Of a stretch of 64,000 bases of DNA, positions 3,426 to 62,730 are shown in pieces; positions within the stretch are counted from its first letter, which is position 1; each line of letters opens with the position of its first letter. The notes beneath the pieces are model-generated. The model saw only the letters and a program-made list of their open reading frames with translations. It was not told where the DNA came from and ran no database searches. A program made the translations under genes and the position numbers. The stretch is from Sporosarcina oncorhynchi (GTDB taxonomy: Bacteria; Bacillota; Bacilli; Bacillales_A; Planococcaceae): positions 2,600,001 through 2,664,000 of the forward strand of contig NZ_CP129118.1 in NCBI RefSeq assembly GCF_033304615.1, read 5' to 3'.

Positions 3426-5453
3426 ATGAAAAGAAGATGGCTCTCCGCATTATTCGTATTATCGATTATTTTAGTCACAGGCTGTACGAAAGAAGAACCG
3501 GCAACACCTGACGATAGATTGCAAGAATACGTAGCGCTTTGGCAAAATAACGACTTTACAAAGATGTACAATGAATATTTGACCGGAGGAACGACAGCGA
3601 CTTTTAATACGGATCATTTCATTGACCGGCAGGAAAAGTTACAAAAAGATCTTGGAATTGAAAACATAATCGTTACATACGATCCACCGGCAGCGGATAA
3701 AGAATGGAATACAGAAGAGCCAGCACCATTCACTGTCCATATATCCATGGATACTGCAGCAGGACCGTTAGCATTTGATAAGGAATTGGTGATGCTCCAT
3801 GAATTACGTGAGGAAGAAGAGAATTGGTATGCCGAATGGGATCCTTCATTCATCTTGCCTGGACTTGGCACAAAAGAAACTGTCGGCATATCAACGATTT
3901 TATCCAAACGTGGAGAGATTGTTGACCGGAATGGTTTGCCAATCGCGATCAATGGAGCTGGCTATGAAATCGGTCTAGTACCTGAAAGATTCACGGACAG
4001 TTCAAACAAACAGGTGGTTGCTGATCTTCTCGGCGTATCCACGGATTATATCGATAAGCAATTGAATCAAAGCTGGGTGAAACCTTCTTATTTCGTACCG
4101 CTCAAAGTCTTATCCAACACAAAGAAAGATTTGGTCGATCGACTCATTGAATTGCCAGGCGTGACGTACCAGAAATCTGAAATGCGGGAATATCCTTTCG
4201 GTGAAGCTTTGGCACATGTTTCAGGGTACGTTGGGAAGATTACGGCTGAACAATTGGAAAAACTTGAGGGCAAAGGATATACCGAAACCGATCTAATCGG
4301 CAGACAAGGCTTGGAACGCGTACTGGAAGAACGACTTCGCGGGCAGGATGGCATTCGTATCTATATGAAAGAAGCGGAAGCAGGGGCTACACCGATTACC
4401 ATTATCGAGCAGCCTGCTAAAGACGGGGAAATCATTTCATTGACGATTGACGCCAAATTGCAGAAGGCATTATTTGACTCCATGAAAGGTGAACCGGGTG
4501 CAAGTGCGGCAGTCGATCCACAAACAGGCGAGACATTGGCACTTGTAAGTTCTCCTAGTTTTGACCCGACGGAGTTCATGCTTGGTGTCAGTTCAGCACG
4601 ATACAACGAACTTGCCGAAGATCCATTGAAACCTTTGTTCAACCGGTATGCAGCTTCATACGCTCCTGGATCGACATTAAAACCAATCACAGCTGCGATT
4701 GGCATGGAAATCGGCAAACTGAACCCTGAGGAAGGATTGAATATAACCGGAAGAACGTGGCAAAAAGACGCCTCGTGGGGGAATTATCGCGTATCGAGAT
4801 TGCATCCTGAAGCACCGAATCCTATCAACTTGAACAATGCGCTCATCTACTCAGATAATATTTATTTTGCGCAACAAGCTCTGGCAATGGGTCGCCAGAC
4901 ATTCATCGATGGATTGACACGGTATGGATTTGGAGAGGACATCCCTTTCATTCTCAACATCGCTTCTTCACAGATTTCAAATGACGGAAAGATTAGCTCA
5001 GAAGGACAGCTTGCCGATACATCATTCGGTCAAGGGCAGATGCTGACAAATATTGTGCATCTGGCGGCGATGTATGAACCGATTGTTAACGGTGGCACGA
5101 TGTATAAGCCGACACTTCTGCTTGAAGATAAGCATAGTGAAGTTTGGAAAGACGGATTACTTTCGAAGGAAAACGCACAGATTTTACGCACGAACTTGCG
5201 GGATGTTGTCGTCAAAGGCTACGCTCAATCTGCAAACCTTCCTACCATTGCATTTGCTGGGAAAACGGGGACTGCAGAACTAAAAGCAGCGGGCGCAGAC
5301 AGAGGCCATGAAAACGGATTTTTCGTAGCATACGACTCCGATGATCCAGCATATATCATCGCGATGATGATTGAAGGTATCGAAGATGAAGGCGGAAGTA
5401 ACTATGTCGCCGCCATGGTCGCCGATGCGGTAACACTCCATAGAGGACAATAA
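3426..5453 (+). CDS. pbpC: class B penicillin-binding protein, PBP3/MecA-like lipoprotein
   Basis: A 675-residue D,D-transpeptidase acting in peptidoglycan cross-linking outside the membrane. The N-terminus is a lipoprotein signal (lipobox LVTGC near residue 21), followed by an NTF2-like MecA_N domain (~30-145), a dimerisation domain and the transpeptidase domain. Catalytic motifs are complete: S416-T-L-K (SxxK), S476-D-N (SxN) and K613-T-G. The architecture is that of Bacillus PBP3 (pbpC) and staphylococcal PBP2a, so low beta-lactam affinity is possible but cannot be inferred from sequence. Start at ATG 3426 behind AGAAAGGATG. It ends in a terminator shared with the convergent sat fragment. 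Confidence 0.92.
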   Translation: MKRRWLSALFVLSIILVTGCTKEEPATPDDRLQEYVALWQNNDFTKMYNEYLTGGTTATFNTDHFIDRQEKLQKDLGIENIIVTYDPPAADKEWNTEEPAPFTVHISMDTAAGPLAFDKELVMLHELREEEENWYAEWDPSFILPGLGTKETVGISTILSKRGEIVDRNGLPIAINGAGYEIGLVPERFTDSSNKQVVADLLGVSTDYIDKQLNQSWVKPSYFVPLKVLSNTKKDLVDRLIELPGVTYQKSEMREYPFGEALAHVSGYVGKITAEQLEKLEGKGYTETDLIGRQGLERVLEERLRGQDGIRIYMKEAEAGATPITIIEQPAKDGEIISLTIDAKLQKALFDSMKGEPGASAAVDPQTGETLALVSSPSFDPTEFMLGVSSARYNELAEDPLKPLFNRYAASYAPGSTLKPITAAIGMEIGKLNPEEGLNITGRTWQKDASWGNYRVSRLHPEAPNPINLNNALIYSDNIYFAQQALAMGRQTFIDGLTRYGFGEDIPFILNIASSQISNDGKISSEGQLADTSFGQGQMLTNIVHLAAMYEPIVNGGTMYKPTLLLEDKHSEVWKDGLLSKENAQILRTNLRDVVVKGYAQSANLPTIAFAGKTGTAELKAAGADRGHENGFFVAYDSDDPAYIIAMMIEGIEDEGGSNYVAAMVADAVTLHRGQ

Positions 5454-5499: not shown

Positions 5500-6528
5500 T
5501 TACTCTTCATCACTTCCACGGTATCTCTTATAAGGCAGCACATTCCATGTACGGTAATCAAAATCGTCGGCCCGGAGCACTTTCGGAATGTCTCCAAGAA
5601 TTTTCGTTGCGACATTCAACTCTTTCTCCGCTTCTTCCTTGTCTTGATACATGAACTCATCCGATGCTGACTTTGGCGCCTGTTTCACTTTCTCCTTTAG
5701 ATCTTCTACAACCATCTGTTGCTGATGATGTAGAGTCTCACGCGCATCCATCACCCACTCAGGTTGCAAATTGCGGTTCGTATCCCCAACACTCGTATAC
5801 TCGTCGAAAATGTCCTGATAGATTTTATTTGCATTTGCCCGCACATCTAAGTTTACTGCCTCTAGATCCCGGTTTGTCAGCTCCTCGACCGTCAAAGGAT
5901 TTGTGCGTTTGGGTCCTCCGAGCCTTGTCCTGTTTAAATAGAACGGGAAAATGCTCTTGATTGTCTTTCCTACTGGAGAGATTGCGTTCTCAAATTCATC
6001 CAACCCTTTCGGCTGGACGCCTTGTATTGCAATCCTCGCTGATTCCGGACGCACGATTTCCTTTGGTGGCATGATTCCGTGCCGTAGCATCTCCCTTATC
6101 CCTGTACCAGATATGTTGATGCGGTACTGTTCATCATGTGGACAAGATTGTTCCGTCGCTTGCGTATCGCATCTCGTACAATAAAACACTTCGTGAAACA
6201 ACCGGATATCGATACCAAGCTCTTCAGGTTTGAATTGGTCAAAGATCGTGTGGCTCGCATATTTATCATAATAATCCCCTATTCCTGCATGATCCCGCCC
6301 AATAAGCGCATGTGTACAGCCGTAATTCTTCATAATTAGTGCATGCAAAACCGTTTCCCGCGGACCTGCAAAAATATAGGTGACACGAAGCGGAGCTAGA
6401 ATCGATCTGCCCTTCGGATAATAGGTTTCTAGCACACTACGATAAGAAAGCATCCGGAACTCATGACGTGTATACTCCCTCTTTGCCATCTCTACAAGAG
6501 GTTGCAAAAGTAACCCATCAATTTCTTC
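5500..6528 (-). pseudogene. sat: sulfate adenylyltransferase, 3' fragment (disrupted by IS)
   Basis: This is the C-terminal part of an ATP sulfurylase, which makes adenylyl sulfate from ATP and sulfate. It keeps AGPRETVLHAL, the nucleotide-binding GRDHAG, the CTRC...CPHD cysteine pair and SGTGIREMLRHG, followed by a ~170-residue charged C-terminal extension longer than in the 380-residue Bacillus subtilis Sat. An in-frame ATG at 6507 could start a 335-residue fragment, but no ribosome site is visible. The N-terminal third, including the HxxH nucleotide-binding segment, lies beyond the insertion at 8400-9094. Removing 6518-8399 restores one frame of 570 residues. Confidence 0.92.
6518..6528. 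repeat. target-site duplication, left copy
   Basis: TCAATTTCTTC is identical to 8400-8410 and flanks the insertion sequence. Removing the element and one copy rejoins sat in frame. Confidence 0.85.
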
Positions 6529-21109: not shown

Positions 21110-21277
21110 GAGGCTGGGACAAAACTAAAATATAGTCCGTTCCCCTGCGCTCCAAAAGGCACGCTTTCCGCGGGGCGCGCTTGAGCCTCCTCGTCGCTGA
21201 AGCTCGCTAACAAATAACATACAAAAAGCGTAAAGGATCATATCCTCTACGCTTTTTGCATGTTATGTCCCAGCCTC
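21110..21277. mobile_element. MITE-like dispersed element, 168 bp
   Basis: The ends are perfect 12-bp inverted repeats, GAGGCTGGGACA (21110-21121) and TGTCCCAGCCTC (21266-21277). Inside are the GC-rich core GCTTTCCGCGGGGCGCGCTT next to CCTCCTCGTCGCT, and a long hairpin (CAAAAAGCGTA pairing with TACGCTTTTTG) that can stop transcription in both directions. There is no coding frame and no clear target duplication. The core is shared with 6620-6744 inside the IS. Confidence 0.7.
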
Positions 21278-21388
21278 TTATTTTTAATTTAATTTATTGA
21301 AGATGAGAAAATTTAAAGGTATAACTAGTCAATTAGCGACGTCATTTATTGATACTATACGAAATCGGATTGCGAAAATAAATTGAAC

Positions 21389-21489
21389 ACAAAAAGCACC
21401 TACACCCATTAAGGTATAGATGCTGTTAACATGCTATTTGTCCCCGAACCCACCCTCGCTGCCTCCACAAATTAGTACATGGTAGTTAC
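21389..21489 (-). repeat. ~100-bp repeat, copy B, with terminator
   Basis: Partner of copy A (19842-19945), same orientation. The terminator stem is AGCATCTA paired with TAGGTGCT, so the one difference from copy A keeps pairing as G-U only in minus-strand RNA, followed by five T. This supports minus-strand transcription and selection on the structure. It forms the 3' end of the transcript carrying DIP1984 and the tRNA-like RNA. Confidence 0.75.
21391..21425 (-). terminator. terminator of the DIP1984 / tRNA-like RNA transcript
   Basis: Stem-loop AGCATCTA...TAGGTGCT followed by five T on the minus strand. It lies ~95 nt past the tRNA-like core. Confidence 0.75.
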
Positions 21490-21520
21490 AATGACAATCT
21501 ATTTGTACAACTGTTACAGT

Positions 21521-21599
21521 ACTGGGCGTCAGTAGTTCATGACGGATTCGAACCGAGTGGTATCGCCCCAATACCTACCACTAGTCCAACTTACCCAGT
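21521..21599 (-). ncRNA. tRNA-like structured RNA next to DIP1984 gene
   Basis: On the minus strand a 79-nt segment is closed by a 7-bp stem (ACTGGGT with GCCCAGT, one G-U). Inside are the T-arm-like CGG-TTCGAAT-CCG (21543-21555) with a perfect seven-base T-loop, and a 5-bp stem with 7-nt loop GGTAT/ATACC (21559-21575) in the anticodon-arm position. The D-side reads AGTTGGACTAGTGGT. It is not a normal tRNA: the T-stem pairs over only 3 bp, position 33 of the loop is not U, a 15-nt stretch that can form its own GTCA/TGAC hairpin separates the T-arm from the 3' acceptor strand, and there is no discriminator/CCA end. The RNA starts within 70 nt of the DIP1984 stop codon, on the same strand. Confidence 0.6.
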
Positions 21600-21665
21600 T
21601 GGCGGGTTTGTACTCACCTTTGCGGATAACAGCTACCGACTAGCATACTTATGTGTTACTTCTTT

Positions 21666-22121
21666 TTACAGTAAATCTGTCGTCCAGTTCAAACCTTGAA
21701 TTTTCGTATCGATTTCCCGGAATTCTTTTGATAATTGATCGACCTGTTTCTGAATGGAAACAACATCTACCGTACTCAGTACTTTGATTTCCGTTCTGCT
21801 GTAACGATCGTTTCGAATGGACGCTTCCTCTGCGACTTTCGCTAGGAGTAGACGTTTGTCCCAAATTTGATCGCGTTCAGTTAGTGCATCAGCCAGTGTC
21901 CAATTTTCATCATACTGGATTGTGCAATTTGTTTTGTTAATACGCTTAATAAGAGCCGTCAATTCTTCCATAATATCATCAAGTTCAGCCAACAACACAT
22001 TTGGATCTTCTGCAGGCTCTTCTCCTTCTTGCGTTTTAACGTTGACGCTAATTCGACTTTTCAACTGTTGGATTCTTTTTTGATAATCAGCGCGTGTGAT
22101 TAATGCTTCAGCTAGTTTCAA
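21666..22121 (-). CDS. DIP1984-family protein
   Basis: A 151-residue, highly charged, mostly helical protein. It opens LKLAEALITRADYQKRIQQL, the family N-terminus, and has the Asn/Thr-rich centre LIKRINKTNC and a C-terminal coiled coil. The frame is open upstream, but the TTG at 22121 is the likely start: AAAGGAG lies 9 nt ahead and the family begins M-K-L-A-E-A-L. DIP1984 proteins have no established reaction. I recall them being discussed with RNA-repair gene sets, but cannot check this here. A tRNA-like RNA follows on the same strand. Confidence 0.85.
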   Translation of the reverse strand: MKLAEALITRADYQKRIQQLKSRISVNVKTQEGEEPAEDPNVLLAELDDIMEELTALIKRINKTNCTIQYDENWTLADALTERDQIWDKRLLLAKVAEEASIRNDRYSRTEIKVLSTVDVVSIQKQVDQLSKEFREIDTKIQGLNWTTDLL

Positions 22122-22301
22122 ATTCAACATCTCCTTTATGTACATATTCAAACGAGTCTAAAACTCTATTATCAATACATTCCTCGTAGAAATCATAATC
22201 CCCTTCTTTTATATCCAGTAAACTCATTTCCTTCACTGTAAGAAGTGCTATACTGTCTTTAATTGTAATTTAAACTAGTGACTTTGGAAAGGAATTAACA
22301 A

Positions 22302-22823
22302 ATGAAAACTGACACAGCAGCTTACTGGGTTTCCAAACTTGGATTACTCCCTCACCCCGAAGGCGGATTTTATAAGAGTACATACGCTTCACAAGAAGAG
22401 ACGACAGATGAGCAACTTAGCGTTGACTTTGAAGGAACGAGAAAGCTCTATACGAGTATTTACTTCCTTCTGACGTCCGAAAATGTCTCCCATTTTCACC
22501 GGTTGAAATCGGACGAGTTATGGTATTATCATGCCGGTAGCTCACTAACCGTCCATGTCATAAAAGAAGATGGCACGTACGCAGAAATTCAGCTTGGTAT
22601 GGATCTTGAAAAAGGTGAAGTGCCGCAAGCGCTTGTTCCGAAAAACTCGATATTCGCTTCTTCTGTCAAAGAAGAAGGTACTTGCTCGCTCGTCGGGTGC
22701 ATGGTATCACCAGGTTTCGAGTTCAAGGATTTTGAACTATTTACGCAAAAAGAGTTGTTGGAGACGTATCCACAACATGAAGCAATCATTATGAAATTGG
22801 CTTACGAAACTCTTCCTGAATGA
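22302..22823 (+). CDS. cupin-superfamily protein, DUF985 type
   Basis: A 173-residue single-domain cupin. It has HPEGGFYKSTYAS near the N-terminus, YFLLTSENVSHFHRLKSDELWYYH split around residues 52-75 (metal-type His/Glu set), and GCMVSPGFEFKDFELF at the end. DUF985 proteins have a cupin barrel and unknown biochemical activity, possibly sugar or small-molecule binding. Start at ATG 22302 behind GGAAAGG. It is alone and divergent from DIP1984. Confidence 0.88.
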   Translation: MKTDTAAYWVSKLGLLPHPEGGFYKSTYASQEETTDEQLSVDFEGTRKLYTSIYFLLTSENVSHFHRLKSDELWYYHAGSSLTVHVIKEDGTYAEIQLGMDLEKGEVPQALVPKNSIFASSVKEEGTCSLVGCMVSPGFEFKDFELFTQKELLETYPQHEAIIMKLAYETLPE

Positions 22824-55042: not shown

Positions 55043-55128
55043 CATTCAAAATTAAAGCTATCATCTTGCCAACTGGCGCTATCCATGATAAGTTTATCTG
55101 TAGAAAAATTTCATTATAAAAAACCATC

Positions 55129-55214
55129 TGTATAACCTCGATAATATGGTTCGAGGGTCTCTACCAGGAACCGTCAAATCCTGATTACAAAAGCTATTTT
55201 TGTAATCGGGATTT
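55129..55214 (+). promoter_or_regulatory. adenine riboswitch of pbuE, with terminator
   Basis: A purine-riboswitch aptamer: P1 from TGTAT (55130-55134) to ATTACA, P2 CCTCGA...TTCGAGG, the conserved core TAATATGG and GTCTCTACC, and P3 CAGGA/TCCTG. The discriminating base in CTGATTAC (55185) is T (U74), as in adenine-sensing members; guanine types have C. The 3' half also forms a long terminator hairpin (CCTGATTACAAAA with TTTTGTAATCGGG) plus T-run. Without ligand this ends transcription; adenine holds P1 and turns pbuE on. Confidence 0.92.
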
Positions 55215-61521: not shown

Positions 61522-62730
61522 TCAATCTTTATATGGATCGTACTCATTCGCACCCGCCATACATACACCGACCGGTTTTAATACATGCAGCACATCAATT
61601 GTTTCATCATGTGCGTCGAGAACATCCTGCAGTTTTCGATAGACGAATGGACTCTCGTCTGTCCCACCGCCACGTAATTCCACTCCGTAATCTCGGATTG
61701 CTTTATCCATCTGTTCCTGAGAGATCTCTCCGCCTCTTCGCTTCTTCGTTTTCCAATTCATCTTCCCAGCCGCTTGGGTTCGGCTCATAATTCTTCCCGC
61801 CCCATGAACGGTACTATAAAAAGAATCCGCGTTCGCTTCATTGTCCTTACCGCGCACGATGACAGATATGTCACCCATACTTCCGCCAATGAACCCCATT
61901 TGTCCAGGCGCAGAAGGAGTCGCTCCTTTTCGTACGACGACATAATCCTTGCCTGCATGCTTCTCTTTCCATGCATAGTTATGGTGGTTGTGCACCTCAA
62001 ATTCTGATGTTGCACCTAGAATGGACAACACTTTATCAATCACATAATTCCTTCCAGCATAAGCAAACTTTCCGCTTAACTCCATCGCGCGGTAATACAA
62101 ATCCCCAAGTTCACTATTTAAATCAATTAATGTCGGTGCCTGCTCCATACTCTCACCCGGTGCCCGGTCTGAAAACCCTCGACCGTTCGCCAAGTTCAGA
62201 AATCCACTTGCGGTCTTATGGCCAAAACCTCTACTTCCGAAATGATTGGCTACCCACACCGCACCTGTTTCCTGCTCCACTAAGAGGTCGACAAAATGAT
62301 TCCCGGCTCCGACCGTTCCGAGTTGGTCTTTCGCCAACTTCTTCAGCTTATCGTGTTCCTGTTGACCGATTTCCTTATAGACGAGCCAATCGGGATCATC
62401 GAACATCGCGTCGTCCACTCGCTCATTATTCTTACGCCCAATGCCAAACGAAATCATTGTCGCTATTTCATCCATTAGCCGCGGCAAGTCCTTTTCGATT
62501 TCATTCCACGTTAAATTGGTTCGTACTGCTTTATTGCCGCAGGCGATGTCGTATCCAACGCCAGAAGGTGAAATCTGACCGTCATAGACAATCACGCCTC
62601 CGACGGGCTGGCTGTATCCATAATGGCCATCTGCACATAACACCCCGCCCGCCACTTGACCTGTCTGTAAACAATTATCGAACTGGCGTAATGTATTGTC
62701 ATCGTGAATCCCGTAAATTTTCTTTTTCAT
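61522..62730 (-). CDS. rtcB: RtcB-family RNA ligase
   Basis: A 402-residue RNA ligase joining 2',3'-cyclic phosphate or 3'-phosphate ends to 5'-OH ends with GTP and Mn2+. Metal and active-site residues are complete: D61 and C64 (GYDIACGN), H145 (GNHFVD), H163 (ANHFGSRG), H247 (VHNHHNY) and the guanylylated H309 (VHGAGR). ATG 62730 behind AAAGGAAG is preferred over the codon at 62763. It is monocistronic here: no archease, RtcA or RtcR gene lies beside it. A DIP1984/tRNA-like RNA locus lies 40 kb away. Confidence 0.93.
   Translation of the reverse strand: MKKKIYGIHDDNTLRQFDNCLQTGQVAGGVLCADGHYGYSQPVGGVIVYDGQISPSGVGYDIACGNKAVRTNLTWNEIEKDLPRLMDEIATMISFGIGRKNNERVDDAMFDDPDWLVYKEIGQQEHDKLKKLAKDQLGTVGAGNHFVDLLVEQETGAVWVANHFGSRGFGHKTASGFLNLANGRGFSDRAPGESMEQAPTLIDLNSELGDLYYRAMELSGKFAYAGRNYVIDKVLSILGATSEFEVHNHHNYAWKEKHAGKDYVVVRKGATPSAPGQMGFIGGSMGDISVIVRGKDNEANADSFYSTVHGAGRIMSRTQAAGKMNWKTKKRRGGEISQEQMDKAIRDYGVELRGGGTDESPFVYRKLQDVLDAHDETIDVLHVLKPVGVCMAGANEYDPYKD

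Follow-up and report, generated by a model that had tools for sequence, protein, structure and literature searches.

The locus raises the question of whether the minus-strand gene for a DIP1984-family protein is followed by an RNA of its own, what kind of RNA this is and how protein and RNA might act. In the window, i.e., the whole stretch of 64,000 nucleotides analysed here, a first-pass annotation had placed a 79-nt tRNA-like RNA behind the gene and had proposed that the protein binds it. The identification of the gene was borne out by both the NF038048 and the PF20935 profiles, which matched the predicted protein above their cut-offs (Table 1), DUF6847 being the sole Pfam family matched, and the closest named relatives of the locus belong to Sporosarcina. 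Translation probably starts at the TTG at 22121, located about 9 bases 3' of an AAAGGAG sequence, whereas the ORF finder places the start at 22151. The AlphaFold model of the protein, which is confident (pLDDT 94.4), consists of four long helices, and Foldseek returned strong matches to the two chains of 3kdq only, the crystal structure of a family member from C. diphtheriae whose function is unknown; a profile search also matched a designed coiled coil (9r1o, E = 1e-6). The DIP1984 proteins are mostly acidic, with a median pI of 5.75 (range 4.8–8.8; 4.8 for the window protein). Since they are acidic and have 3kdq as the only strong structural match, RNA binding is not apparent from the protein itself. 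A distant DUF6847 paralogue of 157 amino acids (two aligned), which shares 22–23% identity with the window protein, is common in this bacterial family. A defence family was also considered and rejected, as PADLOC gave only PDC-S06, at 18.8 bits and over part of a 732-position profile. A PHROGs search gave weak matches only, and a scan of viral contigs with the single DIP1984 protein found no relative. The gene is frequent on Acinetobacter plasmids, which account for 342 of the 371 matching plasmid records, and it is labelled "septicolysin" in some plasmid records.

Alignment of the DNA downstream of DIP1984 genes revealed a structured RNA of about 216 nt, located on the minus strand 3' of the DIP1984 stop codon. 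The alignment (A7) started from 139 downstream stretches, of which 102 passed a motif filter and deduplication and 66 a further similarity filter, 44 of these rows coming from the 80 named loci described below. Because the filter required the 5' motif and the G-rich 3' motif, the most diverged copies are absent (among others L069, L070, L074, L076–L083, L088–L090, L092, and L174) and the conservation of these motifs is partly by choice.

Table 1. Features of the DIP1984 locus, in positions of the window.
Feature	Position	Strand	Evidence or remark
DIP1984-family gene	21666..22121	minus	NF038048 194.9 bits (cut-off 70), PF20935 190.3 bits (cut-off 27), one solved relative 3kdq
Structured RNA associated with DIP1984, full length with closing helix P1	21431..21646	minus	R1 match 21645-21433, 184.9 bits (window sequence is one of the 66 rows behind model R1); alignment; covariation
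P1, 5' strand (ATGCTA + GTC)	21638..21646	minus	partners 21442-21440 and 21436-21431, AAA bulge
Long central helix P2/P2b/P3, 5' strands	21610..21632	minus	partners within 21478-21459
Hairpin P4 (CCAAC/GTTGG)	21586..21602	minus	94.5% of cells paired, double changes in 5/5 pairs
Pseudoknot PK1, CCC 21606-21604 with GGG 21596-21594 in P4 loop	21594..21606	minus	covariation count
Anticodon-arm-like hairpin, loop GGGC used by PK2	21559..21575	minus	double changes in 4/4 pairs, 71.9% of cells paired
Pseudoknot PK2, loop GGGC 21568-21565 with GCCC 21527-21524	21524..21568	minus	94.3% of cells paired, double changes in 4/4 pairs
T-arm-like hairpin, TTCGAAT loop, peripheral	21542..21557	minus	92.9% of cells paired where present; 3 bp only in window
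G-rich 3' strand GCGAGGGTGGGTTCGGGG	21442..21459	minus	highly conserved in 66 rows, rows partly picked by this motif
Intrinsic-terminator-like hairpin	21395..21424	minus	13 pairs then TTTT; 1 found, 0.6 expected

The structure was evaluated on the 66 relatives as eight helical elements, two of them pseudoknots (the tool counts nine elements). The proportion of paired cells was 85.7% of 2504, as compared to 70.7% (sd 0.5) in shuffled alignments and to 33–41% in slid controls, over which the real structure has an advantage, being partly chosen from A7 itself. Changes on both sides were present in 39 of 42 pairs (28.0 in shuffles), compensatory double-change cells numbered 472 as compared to 155.3, and none of 500 shuffles reached the real value on any of five measures. 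A scan of column pairs placed the central helices on top, with some non-structural pairs also scoring high where kinship is not removed. The window RNA folded alone was mildly better than its shuffled versions (z = -2.17, with 5 of 200 as good). On the evidence of the aligned sequences, conservation and covariation of the RNA are overwhelming, as against the mild folding signal of its own sequence. Covariation and conservation beside other DIP1984 genes, whose absence the first-pass annotation had named as a refutation, were both found for the RNA, the conservation extending beyond Bacillota, and the terminator it had read 3' of the RNA is present as a terminator-like hairpin (Table 1).

The helices differed in their constancy. 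Helix P1 was poorly aligned (54.3% of cells paired) and was therefore tested apart, by comparing true with swapped flanks: the true 5'/3' combinations gave a mean pairing of 13.1 as compared to 8.9 for the swapped ones (sd 0.30; 0 of 300; 65 sequences), and P1 was little developed or absent in several copies, e.g., L062, L123, and L127. The 16 pairs of P2/P2b/P3 showed changes on both sides in all cases, with 90.7% (P2) and 96.7% (P2b/P3) of cells paired. P4 was gapped in 11 of the 66 relatives, two pairs of PK1 were paired in 98.2% of cells and the third in 59.6%, and the G-rich 3' strand was wholly or partly missing in L088, L089, L090, and L092. The core predicted from the alignment comprises P1, the long helix P2–P3, the anticodon-arm-like hairpin with PK2 and the strand GNGAGGGYGGG-N-GGGG, and the predicted optional parts are P4 with PK1 and the T-arm-like hairpin.

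These results bear directly on the likeness to tRNA. The stretch 21599–21521, described first as a 79-nt segment, does contain a possible 7-bp stem (ACTGGGT/GCCCAGT), a TTCGAAT loop and a hairpin of 5 bp with a 7-nt loop, but the real unit is the larger RNA, closed by a different helix. The acceptor-like stem itself did not hold up: 61.8% of its cells were paired as compared to 63.2% in shuffles, with 6 double changes where 9.0 were expected from shuffles, and its strands overlap P4 and the two covarying pseudoknots. Of the 66 relatives, 37 had a T-arm with a TTCRA loop, 9 had one with another loop and 20 had no T-arm; among those without it were L141, L149, L159, L163, and L169, i.e., five of the seven loci with a TROVE gene. 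The anticodon-like loop GGGC covaries with the downstream GCCC and is thus not free for decoding, and the RNA carries no CCA. ARAGORN found no tRNA in the 64-kb window or in 16 loci, and the Rfam tRNA model gave no match at E≤10 within 21200–22400. With an acceptor stem lacking covariation, an optional T-arm and no match by tRNA finders, the RNA has a T-loop hairpin in many lineages and yet is not a tRNA; the T-arm counts, PK2 and the non-covarying acceptor stem also ruled out a 79-nt tRNA-like molecule. In a version of the proposal of the first-pass annotation, which spoke of a sensor or decoy for damaged tRNA, DIP1984 would use a tRNA mimic as a sensor or decoy against tRNA-damaging nucleases. 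The TTCRA hairpin beside an anticodon-like arm would fit such a role, as would RNA-repair neighbours in a minority of loci and the fact that plasmids, a viral contig and a phage record carry the unit. Since the mimic fails in its acceptor stem, in its dispensable T-arm, in the loop engaged by PK2 and in the missing CCA, with no tRNA match in the window, the sensor or decoy is left without direct support, and we regard it as quite improbable.

The identity of the RNA was also sought among known families. Rfam 15, searched at gathering score, gave no match on the RNA in the window and none in 15 loci, and a known Rfam family was rejected as its identity on this basis. The YrlA model (RF02553) did not match the RNA in the window (E≤10) or in the seven TROVE loci (E≤1). 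BLAST of 21665–21388 gave no match against phages, and against plasmids only a 33-nt part of the terminator (E = 0.2). Elsewhere in the window, a purine riboswitch was matched at 55108–55207 (plus strand, 76.6 bits). In the literature searched, there was no name for such an RNA and no mention of DUF6847, and DIP1984 was mentioned in one paper, in passing, as a plasmid gene. The 2016 review by Burroughs and Aravind (NAR 44:8525) reportedly speaks in its abstract of "a novel tRNA-like molecule" tied to SPFH/Band-7 proteins, which is possibly the same RNA or a cousin. The RNA is thus new with respect to Rfam 15 and the literature searched, and the 2016 review may have described it.

The association with DIP1984 proved to be very close. 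At every one of the 80 named loci, which are the best of 371 relatives, model R1 found the RNA on the same strand and 5–103 nt after the DIP1984 match; 44 of these loci had helped to build R1, and 8 more were identical to a row used. In the sample of 250 genomes near the window, a DIP1984 match above 170 bits was present in 30, and the same 30 carry the RNA (11 of the 30 are in the model); in the 30 best loci, the window's own included, the RNA sequence was visible by eye in all. Further matches in this sample came from four genomes, two being relics and two being partial, at 19–20 bits. Matches of 19–20 bits in G096, G111 and the second one in G164, recorded by score only, were treated as chance. 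At the level of the phylum, 23 of 398 genomes had a DIP1984 match over the cut-off, and R1 found the RNA beside 21 of the 23; nine of the 23 had contributed to the model, in addition to the window's own. The genomes missed by R1 (G280 and G546; loci L074 and L076) carry a diverged form of the RNA that could be read by eye, the sole model match in G280 being weak and elsewhere in the genome. Among 24 further phylum loci read by eye, 22 had the G-rich 3' end, either as such or in a closely similar form, some being strongly diverged elsewhere (L074, L076–L083); L088 and L089 in this sample are second copies without the G-rich 3' end. In G471, the RNA adjoins a DIP1984 fragment cut by the end of the contig.

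The pair extends beyond the phylum. The loci read also included those carried by Acinetobacter, Picosynechococcus, and Streptomyces plasmids and by an Enterococcus phage record. R1 recognised the RNA at DIP1984 loci outside its alignment in Paracoccus (93.4 bits), Mycobacterium (90.7 bits), the Enterococcus phage record (51.2 bits) and a viral contig (39.6 and 36.4 bits), with weak and partial matches in Psychrobacter (30.9 bits) and Acinetobacter (23.2 bits). The RNA–DIP1984 pair was present in Bacillota, Cyanobacteriota, Actinomycetota, Pseudomonadota and a Pyrinomonadaceae metagenome bin, which we take to represent Acidobacteriota, and on chromosomes, plasmids and phage-type contigs. Protein and RNA distances were correlated (Mantel r 0.67, 0 of 1000 permutations), as is expected for linked genes. 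None of the 21 loci of the distant DUF6847 paralogue that were searched, out of 22 fetched, held the RNA (L010, L012–L031; best score 7.7 bits), which ruled it out as a partner of that paralogue. Both the existence of the RNA and its pairing with DIP1984 are virtually certain. One locus (L201, 3087–5741, minus strand) holds two DIP1984–RNA units with a gene between them that encodes, as read by eye, a 434-amino acid coiled-coil-like protein.

Linkage alone would also fit a cis-acting element, i.e., a 3'-UTR structure of the DIP1984 mRNA that serves message stability or autoregulation and does nothing in trans. Such an element would account for the same strand at every locus counted, for the short distance from the stop codon to the GGTA motif of the RNA (median 10 nt, range 6–98, 65 sequences) and for the fact that the RNA decays together with the DIP1984 gene. 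Two genomes for which no DIP1984 match was listed keep damaged copies (81.6 and 86.9 bits), at L196 2420–2679 and L197 2864–3077, the former being preceded by short remnants of the DIP1984 frame as read by eye. A fold of 200 nt with two pseudoknots, however, exceeds in our judgement the needs of a stability element, and some copies stand apart from a DIP1984 gene of their own. In genome G641, a second copy (L198, 3898–4101) lies about 760 nt after the first, behind another ORF and without its own DIP1984. The 178-kb viral contig L174 carries two diverged copies (4987–5184 and 5788–5989), both behind other ORFs: the first is separated from DIP1984 by 516 nt that contain two ORFs, and the second directly follows an ORF that looks HNH-like by eye. 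These copies are suggestive of action in trans, and we consider a cis-acting element unlikely.

The same distribution could be read as that of a ribozyme or of an RNA belonging to a selfish mobile unit, in which case DIP1984 would be a maturase-like helper or cargo. The patchy spread over several phyla, plasmids, the phage record and the viral contig is in line with mobility, as are the HNH-like ORF just before the second RNA of the viral contig and the partial duplication of the RNA 3' end in L094, where it lies together with the terminator behind an HxlR-type gene (4863–4960). The RNA nevertheless lies outside reading frames and has no Rfam match of any kind, and this explanation is very improbable.

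Genomic context was analysed in 62 loci, i.e., all named loci except 19 from Sporosarcina, plus L174. TROVE/Ro60 was encoded upstream in 7 of the 62 loci and RlaP in 6, downstream in 5 of them, as grouped by homology clusters, all being from Paenibacillus or Cohnella; the two were the recurrent partners with constant side and strand, and 55 neighbourhoods were free of TROVE. Pfam names among the 118 nearest ORFs included TROVE 6 times and RlaP 5 times, and eight of these proteins were confirmed singly. Other clusters of three loci look clade-specific, and an ABC-transporter-type cluster (5 loci) occurs on either side, as do GNAT acetyltransferases (7 of 118 neighbours). The nearest downstream ORF of the RNA, by a simple ORF caller, was on the same strand in 37 cases and on the opposite one in 19, and the commonest recurrent downstream partner was RlaP. 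A riboswitch or leader for a downstream gene was ruled out, since no constant kind of gene lies there.

In six of the seven TROVE loci, a YrlA-like match precedes TROVE, at 38–49 bits and below the gathering score of 69, so that each of the two proteins in these loci appears to have a different RNA of its own; the matches (L141, L145, L149, L157, L159, and L169) are possible new YrlA members. The order of this gene row, as seen in part of the Paenibacillus and Cohnella genomes, is YrlA, Ro60/TROVE, DIP1984, RNA, RlaP. In several TROVE loci, the RNA is flanked on one side by DIP1984 and on the other by RlaP, with a common strand, a position that again argues against a purely cis-acting element. 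A passage of PMC7824862 describes RlaP and TROVE among RNA-repair systems, and the gene row points to RNA surveillance or repair. The RNA-repair context named in the first-pass annotation was recovered for a minority of the DIP1984–RNA loci.

Among the 398 phylum genomes, TROVE was found in 9, the RNA in 23 and both in 2 (p = 0.09). In 68 genomes of one family, probably that of Paenibacillus, the RNA occurred in 11, TROVE in 15 and both in 7, where 2.4 were expected (p = 0.0013 when kinship is ignored, 0.046 by genus), with the RNA and TROVE within 4 kb in only one of the 7. A search of the window's own genome found no TROVE and no RlaP; its only match to RtcB RNA ligase (233 bits) lies at 61561–62643 on the minus strand, about 40 kb from DIP1984. 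Because it is drawn from a minority of loci, RNA surveillance or repair is put forward as a tentative role, with the balance slightly against it.

The RNA accompanies DIP1984 across phyla and is absent from Rfam, which makes it probable that they function jointly in a single particle. The locus would then be a two-part unit, made of a small helical protein and a pseudoknotted RNA of about 200 nt encoded just past its stop codon. Gene and RNA would be transcribed together, the RNA would persist as a separate molecule after processing, and DIP1984 would bind it to give a stable ribonucleoprotein acting in trans, by analogy with Ro60 and its Y RNA; in some Paenibacillus and Cohnella, this unit would have joined the row of Ro60 and RlaP. 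Binding and expression are inferred, and we hold the ribonucleoprotein acting in trans to be the somewhat better bet. Whether it represents an undescribed bacterial class is an even call: such a class would be defined by a doubly pseudoknotted RNA of about 200 nt, mostly with a GAGGGYGGG-N-GGGG strand, that is near-obligately associated with DIP1984 across phyla, independent of Ro60, and plugged into the Ro60–RlaP row in some Paenibacillus and Cohnella. An RNA tied to one protein family and absent from Rfam 15 offers a functional handle on DIP1984, and the pairing predicts that DIP1984 binds this RNA.

Compared with known systems, the "novel tRNA-like molecule" said to be tied to SPFH/Band-7 proteins differs in context, as the 25 commonest neighbour families shown did not include an SPFH family (92 rarer families lie outside that list). 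The RtcB/RlaP systems of RNA repair are resembled by those Paenibacillus and Cohnella loci that have RlaP and TROVE nearby, whereas the genome of the window lacks both and keeps RtcB at a distance. A further comparison is with Ro60/Rsr (TROVE) and its Y RNA or YrlA (RF02553). DIP1984 differs from Ro60 in matching only DUF6847 in Pfam, and its RNA differs from YrlA in giving no match to that model, in lying after its protein gene where the separate YrlA-like match precedes TROVE, and in being encoded beside TROVE in only a minority of loci, with none in the window's genome. According to a passage of PMC7790460, the YrlA of Salmonella has a tRNA-like domain. The two units are alike in that a structured non-coding RNA is encoded next to the protein, in having tRNA-like elements, which many copies of the DIP1984-associated RNA show, and, at a minority of loci, in an RNA-repair neighbourhood; in some genomes both units stand in one gene row, where the DIP1984-associated RNA appears to add a second RNA to the Ro60 locus.
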